From positions 1 through 23,620 of the IMG/VR virus record IMGVR_UViG_3300031673_000492: DNA of 23,620 bases. One strand, written 5' to 3'. The translations under genes were made by a program, and so were the position numbers. Numbering within the stretch: the stretch's first letter is position 1; every line of letters begins with the position of its first letter. Shown here one piece after another: positions 12,088 to 23,620 of the stretch. Origin of the DNA: a virus. Under the pieces are notes generated by a model. That model was not told the DNA's origin. It searched no databases and was given only the letters and a program-made list of their open reading frames with translations.

Positions 12088-12292
12088 CTTTACCCCCATT
12101 TAATTTTATGAATATTTTTACTATTTTATTTCTATCTGTCATTGATGGGAATGTTGTAAATAGTTTATATAACATTCCTGTTGATATCGCCCTTTTTCCA
12201 TTCTCTACATCTGATATGATCGGCTGTTGAATTGTTGTCTTATCTTCTAACTGTTTCTGTGTTAAACCCTTACTTTCTCTAAACTCTTTCAT
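12077..12292 (-). CDS. Cro/C1-type (XRE) helix-turn-helix regulator, 71 aa
   Basis: The HTH is clear: FRESKGLTQKQLEDKTTIQQ then PIISDVENGKRAISTGMLYK (about 4-43), with the QxxLxxxxxxxxxxISxxExGxR pattern of the XRE family. The rest is a short helix that may dimerise. As the first gene behind the promoter at 12313-12341, it probably controls its own operon and perhaps the neighbouring short-RNA promoter, whose start overlaps an inverted repeat. AAGGAGGT lies 5 nt before ATG 12292. Whether it is Cro-like in a temperate phage or a simple early regulator cannot be decided, since no integrase or divergent repressor is in the window. Confidence 0.88.
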   Translation of the reverse strand: MKEFRESKGLTQKQLEDKTTIQQPIISDVENGKRAISTGMLYKLFTTFPSMTDRNKIVKIFIKLNGGKDED

Positions 12293-12312: not shown

Positions 12313-12341
12313 AGTATATCACTACATTATATTAATGTCAA
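12313..12341 (-). promoter_or_regulatory. Sigma-A-type promoter of the early (recombination) operon
   Basis: Minus-strand TTGACA (12341-12336), 17-bp spacer, TATACT (12318-12313), with a TGn extended -10. It drives the XRE gene and the long operon down to ssb. Transcription starts about 12306, so the leader is only about 14 nt and holds the AAGGAGGT (12298-12305). Confidence 0.88.
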
Positions 12342-12352
12342 GAAAAATGTGC

Positions 12353-12385
12353 AAATAAAAAACGCAACCTTTTATTGATTGCGTT
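12353..12385 (-). terminator. Rho-independent terminator between late and early transcripts
   Basis: On the minus strand a 7-bp stem AACGCAA/TTGCGTT (12379-12385 with 12361-12367) and 11-nt loop are followed by TTTTATTT. It stops transcription coming from the lysis/phosphoesterase side and from the promoter at 12438-12466, 12 bp before the early promoter -35. Confidence 0.8.
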
Positions 12386-12431
12386 AGTGGATATTGTTTC
12401 TTTGCTTAAACGATACTACTATACTAAATAT
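12353..12431 (-). ncRNA. Candidate ~80-nt phage small RNA
   Basis: A strong promoter (12438-12466) and a terminator (12353-12385) stand about 50 nt apart with no ATG-initiated frame between them, predicting a transcript of about 80 nt. Its 3' end is the terminator hairpin. Its 5' end lies in the inverted repeat at 12418-12434. No known RNA family recognised. Alternatively the promoter could feed the early operon through a leaky or anti-terminated terminator. Confidence 0.4.
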
Positions 12432-12434
12432 AGT
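12418..12434. promoter_or_regulatory. Inverted repeat over the predicted start of the short transcript
   Basis: ACTATACTAAATATAGT has perfect 6-bp arms (ACTATA/TATAGT) around a 5-bp centre and covers the predicted transcription start of the promoter at 12438-12466. The position fits an operator for the adjacent XRE regulator. It may instead form a 5' RNA hairpin. Confidence 0.4.
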
Positions 12435-12437
12435 TAT

Positions 12438-12466
12438 ATATTATCAAATTTAAATTACTTTGTCAA
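12438..12466 (-). promoter_or_regulatory. Sigma-A-type promoter inside the end of the deoxyribosyltransferase-like gene
   Basis: Minus-strand TTGACA (12466-12461) overlaps the last codons of the gene ending at 12455; after a 17-bp spacer comes TAATAT (12443-12438) with a TGn extended -10. By consensus this is one of the best promoters in the window, yet the only thing between it and a terminator is a short non-coding stretch. Confidence 0.7.
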
Positions 12467-12751
12467 GTCTATAATTTCTATTCCTAATAATTCAGCTCTA
12501 TTTAATTCTTCTATACAACCATTACTTCTGCCGTAAAGATAAAACTTATCACAAGCTGGAACTAAATTATCTAAACAATATGACATTATAATTTCACGTT
12601 CGTTGTCTTTTTCTTTCGTTATGAACGGAAAGTGCAAAGCAGGGCAAATTGGAACTTCTCCTTTGTTCCTGTGTTTTTTGCATATCTGCTTACATTTTAA
12701 ACGATTTATAAATGGTGAAGCTGAAAATGGGTGACTTATAAATACTTTCAT
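12455..12751 (-). CDS. Nucleoside 2-deoxyribosyltransferase-like (DUF4406/DUF7768-type) protein, 98 aa
   Basis: The protein starts MKVFISHPFSASPFINRLKC, has an internal PICPALHFPF, and ends with CDKFYLYGRSNGCIEELNRA and LLGIEIIDL. This is the small Rossmann-like fold of nucleoside 2-deoxyribosyltransferase relatives: an initial strand ending in a phosphate-binding loop, and a final SxGxxxExxxAxxxGIxI segment. The usual catalytic Glu would be in the CIEELNRAE block. Most phage members have no proven activity. ATG 12751 overlaps the phosphoesterase stop by 4 bp, so both are made together, possibly acting on nucleotides. A promoter begins inside its last codons. Confidence 0.68.
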   Translation of the reverse strand: MKVFISHPFSASPFINRLKCKQICKKHRNKGEVPICPALHFPFITKEKDNEREIIMSYCLDNLVPACDKFYLYGRSNGCIEELNRAELLGIEIIDLTK

Positions 12752-13557
12752 ACTATTATTGAACCTTTCATATGTTTTACTACCCTTCCGTTTTTATACT
12801 CATACCACAAATCAATAGTAGGACAACCAGTAACTATCGGTGAAAAACCTTTTTTAACCGCATATCCTCCCCAATTCAAAAACGTACCACTATTTACAAA
12901 TAAGAGTACTTTATCAATTAATGCACAATTAACGTGATCCGCTATCACTATTTTTTGTGGGAAAATCATTTGTTGGTGTGTATGCCCTGTTATGTATATA
13001 TCTGCTATTACTTCTTTTTTTAAATCTTCAAGTCTATTAGCTTTTGAGCCAACTCGACTTCCACCACCAGAACCATGCTTCATGTAAATTGATGTGGTAC
13101 AATAACTATCTTTTCTAGGTCTGCCATACTTTAAAAATAAAACAAAAGCATTTTCAGCGTACAAATTTTCTAAACCTAATAATATAGCAATATCTTCTAA
13201 TATACCACTATCAGCTTCTTTAGCACTTCTATCTTCGTGGTTACCGGGAGTTATTGCTAATATTTTATGTGCAATAGGTCTTAATAATTCTACTGCCATT
13301 TTCTTTTGTTCTCGTGGAGTATATTTATTTTCATATACACTACCAACGCTATTTTTAAGTGTGTTGTCAACAATATCCCCACCGATTAAAACGTAAGCGT
13401 TGGGGTTTTCTAATATCTCTTTAATTACTTCATTAACTTTTTTTTCATCGTAATAATGTGTTCCAATGTGAAGGTCTGATAAACCATACAATTTTATACT
13501 CGTCAGAGTTTTAGGTAAAATTCTAACAATTTTCGTTATTGCCTCTGGTGTTTGCAT
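12748..13557 (-). CDS. Calcineurin-like metallophosphoesterase
   Basis: All metal-binding motifs are intact: DLHIG (Asp28, His30), GGD (Asp61), GNHE (Asn106, His107), KHGSG (His161), and GHTH (His192, His194). The enzyme should be an active two-metal phosphoesterase; substrates of this superfamily include nucleic acids, cyclic nucleotides and phosphoproteins, and cannot be told apart here. Length 269 aa is normal for phage members. It lies after endolysin under its own promoter (13662-13690) and is coupled to a deoxyribosyltransferase-like gene, suggesting a nucleotide-directed pair. The ribosome site GAGGG is very close (3-4 nt) to ATG 13557, so translation may be modest. Confidence 0.92.
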   Translation of the reverse strand: MQTPEAITKIVRILPKTLTSIKLYGLSDLHIGTHYYDEKKVNEVIKEILENPNAYVLIGGDIVDNTLKNSVGSVYENKYTPREQKKMAVELLRPIAHKILAITPGNHEDRSAKEADSGILEDIAILLGLENLYAENAFVLFLKYGRPRKDSYCTTSIYMKHGSGGGSRVGSKANRLEDLKKEVIADIYITGHTHQQMIFPQKIVIADHVNCALIDKVLLFVNSGTFLNWGGYAVKKGFSPIVTGCPTIDLWYEYKNGRVVKHMKGSIIV

Positions 13558-21886: not shown

Positions 21887-23620
21887 CTATCTCCTTATTG
21901 TTCTATAAACTAAGTATTTTATATTGAGTTCTAACAAGCCAAAAGACTCATCAAGAACATCATTTCTTATTTCTATTTGAAAAGTGTTTGTTTTCTTTTG
22001 TTTAAGTTTTATATTAAATGCTAATGGAAATATATTAGCACTAAATGATAATGTCGAAAATACTAGTGTTGAAAACTGGAACAATGTCTGTGTAACTGTT
22101 CTTAATACTTCAAATACACTATTAATATCACTTCTAACGCTTACTTTTGCTGATGTAGTTGATAATGATTTAATTGTAAAAAACAGTTCTGATATGTTTT
22201 TATAAAATGAACCAGTGCCAAAATTTAATAATTTAGAACGCCAATATGCTGTAATTGCACTTCCATCATCATTAAAACTTGAAGTATTGTATTGATCTTG
22301 AAATTTATATATCTTACCTTTTCTACTATCACCAAATAATAATTCATTATCTAACATTAAAAAGTTATTAGCATATATATTGTCAAACTTTAACCATTGT
22401 TTTATGTCATAATCATATATCCACCCAATGCCAGTATTTGAATTTACTAACCAGTATTTTCTATCATAATCAATAGATTTGTAGTATTCTAAATTATCAA
22501 CATCTAATATACCTTGTGAAGATATATTGTCTATATTTCTATTTACTTTTAAAGAAATAACTTCTACATTTCTTTCATCTTCTATACTTGTATTTTTGGT
22601 TACATATACACCTTTTCTATCTAAATACATAGGGTTATTTTCAACTAATTGAACACTATCAGCAGTATATGCACCAGCTGATTTATTAAGTCTTTGCGTT
22701 GGGAATGTTACGTCACCATCTGTATCAATTTCTACTTTTCTTATATGTTGAGAATATTCTTTAAATACTACCAAAGTATTGTATTGAATTTCATAAGCTG
22801 TAATTGCTTCACCAGTATCACCTATTGTGTAAAAACCATTAATAGGAAAGTATGTAGCATCATATACACCTGATATGTAATCAACATTTAATTCATCTGT
22901 ATTACCAGTTAAAATAACTCTACTATCTGAATTACCACCATATACTGCAAACTGTTTGCATTTTTCTATCTTAGCACGATTTCCAGCTGTTGTTTTATAA
23001 GCTGTAATAACACAGTTATCTTCACTATTAAGTGGTGCAACTGAAAATGTTACTACACCAGTTGTTCTATTTACTGTAAACCCTACACCTTCAGTTAAAG
23101 CTATACCTTCTACTGTTGCTGTGACTGTTGTTGCGTCTAAATTAGCTAATGCTAAGTTATAAGCTACTGTTGCACCATCACCGTCATATCTTTGTGTAAA
23201 ACCAGCAGATATAAGATTAAGTTGTTCAAATAATGTACCACCACCAGCTGGTGGAGTACCTATTGTAATTGTTGGTATTTTACCAACTACTTCACTTACT
23301 GTTGTACCGTCATAAACTAAATACTTCACACCATCTAAAAAATAAAAATAATCTGTGAAAGTAAAACCTCTAACTTGACTATCAGCTATTCCTGTATAAA
23401 TAACTGCATACGTTTCAGCAGAATAATCAATAGTATATATTGCTGTTTGAAAAGCGGCTAAATTTATATCGCCAGTTATTTTTTTGTATGTAAAAATCCC
23501 GTTCACAGCTTTTGGTATCGTAACACCACCACCATCAACGAAGTCTATAACAGTTGTATAACCGGAACGTTTATCAATAGCACCATCATCATCAAGTGTT
23601 ACATTTAACATATCAGGCGA
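21887..23620 (-). CDS. Tail/head-completion structural protein (partial, N-terminus off the window)
   Basis: The frame is open to the right edge: before MLNVTLDDDGAIDKRSGY are the codons for Ser-Pro-Asp, and the conserved start motif SPDMLNVxLDxxGxIxKRxGY normally follows some 15-25 residues, so the true start is outside. The protein is beta-rich throughout. It has an inserted Ig-like piece (about 140-205, YDGDGATVAYNLAL, GFTVNRTTGVVTFS), then VDYISGVYDATYFPINGFYT and YNTLVVFKEYSQHI, blocks seen in phage stabilisation/tail-tube-type beta-propeller proteins (P22 gp10-like role). Exact family is uncertain. It is the first gene of the visible late operon. Confidence 0.72.
   Translation of the reverse strand, partial: SPDMLNVTLDDDGAIDKRSGYTTVIDFVDGGGVTIPKAVNGIFTYKKITGDINLAAFQTAIYTIDYSAETYAVIYTGIADSQVRGFTFTDYFYFLDGVKYLVYDGTTVSEVVGKIPTITIGTPPAGGGTLFEQLNLISAGFTQRYDGDGATVAYNLALANLDATTVTATVEGIALTEGVGFTVNRTTGVVTFSVAPLNSEDNCVITAYKTTAGNRAKIEKCKQFAVYGGNSDSRVILTGNTDELNVDYISGVYDATYFPINGFYTIGDTGEAITAYEIQYNTLVVFKEYSQHIRKVEIDTDGDVTFPTQRLNKSAGAYTADSVQLVENNPMYLDRKGVYVTKNTSIEDERNVEVISLKVNRNIDNISSQGILDVDNLEYYKSIDYDRKYWLVNSNTGIGWIYDYDIKQWLKFDNIYANNFLMLDNELLFGDSRKGKIYKFQDQYNTSSFNDDGSAITAYWRSKLLNFGTGSFYKNISELFFTIKSLSTTSAKVSVRSDINSVFEVLRTVTQTLFQFSTLVFSTLSFSANIFPLAFNIKLKQKKTNTFQIEIRNDVLDESFGLLELNIKYLVYRTIRR

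Follow-up and report, generated by a model that had tools for sequence, protein, structure and literature searches.

The early boundary of the Bacillus phages Palmer, Page and Pascal (Pagevirus) has the order lysis genes, a unit with FtsK-like and Rep genes, an intrinsic terminator, a TTGACA-type promoter (with TTGACG as the -35 in Pascal), an RBS, a small lambda-repressor-like helix-turn-helix (HTH) gene and the early genes. In all three phages the terminator overlaps the Rep stop codon and thus leaves no room for an additional promoter unit ahead of it. Short RNAs are known from other settings. The sRNAs DapZ, MicL and ArgX are mapped transcripts with known targets; each is made from a promoter of its own, which lies within a coding gene or at its 3' end, and has its 3' end in common with that gene; for DapZ, the promoter sits shortly before the dapB stop codon (PMC9438474). 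Among phage RNAs, lambda OOP is 77 nt and P22 sar 68/69 nt long (PMC12197685); OOP is antisense to cII while sar pairs with the ant mRNA. In the lambda Q, AlpA and Gifsy-1 IsrK/AntQ systems, a promoter is followed shortly downstream, before a gene, by an intrinsic terminator. The terminator of the AlpA-controlled alpB begins 54 nt past the transcription start (PMC7969949), and IsrK occurs as a terminated short form and as a read-through mRNA (PMC4825925).

We analyzed a stretch of 23,620 bases (the window), the uncultivated virus record IMGVR_UViG_3300031673_000492 of IMG/VR, which is probably a fragment. All plausible genes of the window are on the minus strand, as are the promoters and terminators described below. 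The virion protein encoded at 21887-23611 shared 39% identity with the corresponding protein of Bacillus phage Palmer across 99% of its length, and by this protein no annotated phage in the collection was closer than Palmer. The source phage is a distant relative of Bacillus podophages. The locus under study lies between two units. Upstream are a calcineurin-like metallophosphoesterase gene (12748-13557) and a DUF7768/deoxyribosyltransferase-like gene (12455-12751), and a promoter-like site, P0 (TTGACA-17-(TGA)AACAAT, 13690-13662), is likely the promoter of this unit. The leader of about 100 nt between P0 and the phosphoesterase gene (13690-13558) was predicted to form two hairpins (fold z -2.6, with 1 of 200 shuffles as good) and matched no Rfam family. 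Downstream, the early operon begins with a small XRE/HTH_3 regulator of 71 aa (12292-12077; HTH_3 match 2.5e-11), preceded by the RBS aaggagg at about 12303-12297 and followed by Sak-like, RecE-like and SSB genes.

Between the two units we identified an intrinsic terminator (12385-12355), whose stem-loop at 12385-12361 has a 9-bp stem with 4 G-C pairs, AACGCAATC-AATAAAA-GGTTGCGTT, an energy of about -10 kcal/mol and a T-rich tail, TTTTATTT. Directly past it is the early operon promoter P2 (TTGACA-17-(TGA)TATACT, 12341-12313), which matches 11 of the 12 consensus positions and carries the TG extension. A further promoter-like site, P1 (TTGACA-17-(TGA)TAATAT, 12466-12438), overlaps the DUF7768 stop codon; its -35 box (12466-12461) occupies the last codons of that gene, just ahead of the stop. 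An exact inverted repeat, ACTATA-tttag-TATAGT (12434-12418), is located at the predicted P1 start. The promoter, terminator, early promoter and repeat named by the original prediction were thus all in place. Its description of P1 as a near-consensus extended -10 promoter held for the -35 box (6/6), the 17-nt spacer and the TG extension but not for the -10, which matches at only 4 of 6 positions.

To score promoter-like sites across the whole window, we added the hexamer matches, gave 1.5 for TG and subtracted a spacer penalty. Four sites on the minus strand and none on the plus strand scored at least 11.5, against an expectation of 0.3 for Markov sequence of matching composition; since we devised the scheme ourselves and chose it once the sites had been seen, this and the other chance figures are indicative only. 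On these figures, promoter-like sites were in excess of chance. The four sites begin at 12341 (P2), 12466 (P1), 13690 (P0) and 292, and, apart from P1, which starts at the edge of its gap, they fall within intergenic gaps, which make up 3.7% of the window. The promoter at 292-264, one of the two best in the window, precedes a truncated gene (1-292) with weak similarity to sigma-70 region 4 and phage transcriptional regulators; by this similarity its product could be a late-gene activator. Two minus-strand terminators were located in gaps, the one at 12385-12361 and another at 7986-7964, and both are followed by a promoter of the pattern TTTTTC-TTGACA-TTAAT...TATACT. The second pair (7986-7930) has the same design, and its promoter (7958-7930) is a near twin of P2, almost matching it in -35 flank and -10. 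This pair heads a unit with a DUF5131/radical-SAM-like gene; a small Arc/ParD-like ribbon-helix-helix protein is encoded at 7156-6974, between the radical-SAM-like gene and the replication genes.

We then compared the locus with relatives. A DNA similarity search of the phage collection with this region returned no relative, and exact-pattern scans of viral contigs for P1 and for P2 found nothing. Protein-based scans with the XRE, DUF7768, phosphoesterase and 1574-aa proteins yielded no usable relatives; one candidate, L002, proved to be an unrelated XRE match. IMG/VR relatives were taken from a virion-protein profile, followed by an HTH search of their records. No equivalent boundary was present in L009 and L011, the nearest records when compared through the 574-aa virion protein, and the HTH matches in G001, G009, G027 and G035 were set aside because the boundary was absent or the context different. 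An automatic scan of large loci for terminator-promoter pairs, which was also how relatives in bacterial genomes were covered, found few, as most loci end before the region. A terminator with a promoter close behind and then a small HTH gene was common to Palmer, Page and Pascal and to four IMG/VR relatives (G011, G013, G014 and G018); from their sequences, the HTH proteins of G013 and G018 look MerR/excisionase-like. The window shares with the Pagevirus phages the terminator (12385-12361), the TTGACA-type promoter behind it (12341-12313), the RBS and a small HTH gene placed first, ahead of early and recombination genes. We also count as a likeness that the Pagevirus boundary sits downstream of a small unit coming after the lysis genes. 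It differs in having neither a gap nor P1, and in that the upstream genes are FtsK-like and Rep rather than phosphoesterase and DUF7768.

The relatives also pointed to how P2 may be controlled. Palmer and Page differ from Pascal in three half-sites around their early promoters, which change together, one in the spacer (GGCAAC to GGAAAC) and two downstream of the -10 (GTTACC to GTTTCC and GGCAAC to GGAAAC), as seen at 29085-29150 of L003 and in the matching segment of L004 (Pascal). Such concerted change suggests the operator of an HTH protein that controls its own expression. Within the P2 spacer of the window, 12338-12324 form a perfect palindrome, ACATTA-ATA-TAATGT, which has no other exact copy in the window and was absent from the original prediction. 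By analogy, this palindrome is a candidate XRE operator, and control of P2 by the XRE protein is plausible since the relatives show an operator at the equivalent promoter. The original prediction suggested that the regulator could bind the P1 repeat, and such control of P1 would have a weak repeat as its basis. Control of P1 and P2 together is speculative because the two repeats have 4 of 6 bases per half-site in common and differ in spacing. By themselves, the inverted repeats, that of the P2 spacer included, were not above chance, with three seen against 1.0 expected (p = 0.12).

Since the module of terminator, P2 and HTH gene recurs in relatives and the operator-like half-sites change together between Palmer and Pascal, the terminator most likely closes the phosphoesterase-DUF7768 unit and P2 opens the early operon. 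On present comparison the terminator and P2 make up an operon boundary of an ordinary kind that recurs in relatives, and P1 is the sole unusual piece. With moderate confidence, we favor an insulated operon boundary to which P1 probably adds a short terminated RNA. The upstream transcript would be halted at the terminator and the early operon started at P2, directly past it. The small XRE protein, the first early product, would most likely bind the P2 palindrome and limit its own operon. Lying in the DUF7768 3' end, P1 would use the terminator of that gene and probably yield an RNA of about 79 nt, in the manner of a 3'-end sRNA that has a promoter to itself, and transcription from P1 may occasionally read through into the early operon.

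The predicted RNA runs from 12431, 7 nt past the P1 -10, to 12353, and the terminator begins about 46 nt past this predicted start. The 69-nt gap between the DUF7768 gene and the terminator contains no usable start codon, and the sole start codon within the RNA is a TTG inside the terminator stem. A terminated RNA of about 80 nt, as in the original prediction, is what would directly be expected from P1. P1, which lies in AT-rich DNA at the DUF7768 3' end, might however resemble a promoter by chance, and the terminator and P2 alone would then matter; this possibility was judged on several grounds. The 4/6 match of the -10 agrees with a chance origin, and so do the repeats and the fold of the short RNA, which surpassed shuffles only slightly (z -1.8). 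In Palmer, Page, Pascal, G013 and G018, moreover, no site scoring at least 9.5 was present within 330 nt upstream of the terminator. The sole such site of G014, 240 nt upstream, falls inside a small ORF and was rejected as a second P1. An intergenic site in these 330 nt was therefore absent from six of the seven relatives; in G011 such a site lies 294 nt upstream and is separated from the terminator by a tRNA-Thr. The terminator-P2-HTH module is thus shared across a great distance while P1 is not, but with relatives so remote this counts only weakly against P1. On the other hand, a site of the quality of P1 was improbable in 98 nt of gap-like sequence (p = 0.001, indicative), and the other sites of such score sit at expected promoter positions. 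A chance origin is accordingly possible but somewhat unlikely. P1 is a statistically good promoter candidate that is probably active.

If P1 is active, its RNA could act as a regulatory sRNA that pairs with phage or host mRNAs, like OOP, sar and DapZ. The anatomy agrees well: P1 is placed like a DapZ-type promoter, where the upstream gene ends and by its stop codon, the predicted RNA ends at the DUF7768 terminator, and its size is near that of OOP and sar. DapZ, MicL and ArgX are, however, mapped transcripts, whereas the P1 RNA is predicted from sequence; unlike OOP and sar, it is antisense to no recognized gene. The best duplex with the starts of phage mRNAs was equaled by 72% of shuffles, giving no target above chance, and a search of 12353-12431 with the Rfam covariance models found no family (best sub-threshold E 0.95). 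A direct repeat of 74% between the leader (12395-12417) and the XRE gene (12252-12274) was judged to be probable chance. An sRNA from P1 is plausible but unproven, and pairing with phage or host mRNAs as its function is unlikely. The dedicated phage small RNA proposed originally is possible in this sense, but neither conservation, covariation, a known family nor a target stands behind it.

We also considered that the space before the terminator is a slot for noncoding RNAs, which contains a tRNA in one relative and would contain an unrecognized RNA in the window. In G011 a tRNA-Thr (L097, 1869-1944, minus strand) directly precedes the early-boundary terminator, which is followed by the promoter and the HTH gene, and in L048 (20368-20859) tRNA-Phe and tRNA-Pro precede a similar terminator and then a promoter. 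These are two examples only, that of L048 not at a verified early boundary, and ARAGORN and Rfam detected no tRNA or known RNA in the present region; we hold a shared slot to be improbable. About equally improbable is that P1 is regulated and that its RNA of about 79 nt governs entry into early transcription, by base-pairing or by controlled read-through into the XRE operon, with the XRE protein binding both P1 and P2.

The weakest reading, an antitermination or attenuation switch in which P1 feeds the early operon once a factor overrides the terminator, resembles the lambda Q/pR'/tR', AlpA and IsrK arrangements in the short distance from start to terminator and has a -10-like TATAGT after the P1 start, but it is very improbable, because P2 lies between the terminator and the XRE gene, so that, unlike in those systems, the early operon needs no read-through, because most relatives have the same layout without P1, and because no competing antiterminator hairpin was predicted in the read-through transcript and no antiterminator gene was recognized among the proteins scanned, many early genes being without a family and the contig probably a fragment. 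The anti-termination switch between late and early transcripts offered by the original prediction is for these reasons unsupported.

P1 offers a specific candidate phage sRNA beyond the enterobacterial models, though in a single sequence without close relatives. For the poorly studied Page-like phages, the insulated boundary predicts promoters insulated by terminators, a small HTH regulator at the head of the early genes, and an operator whose half-sites vary together between Palmer and Pascal.
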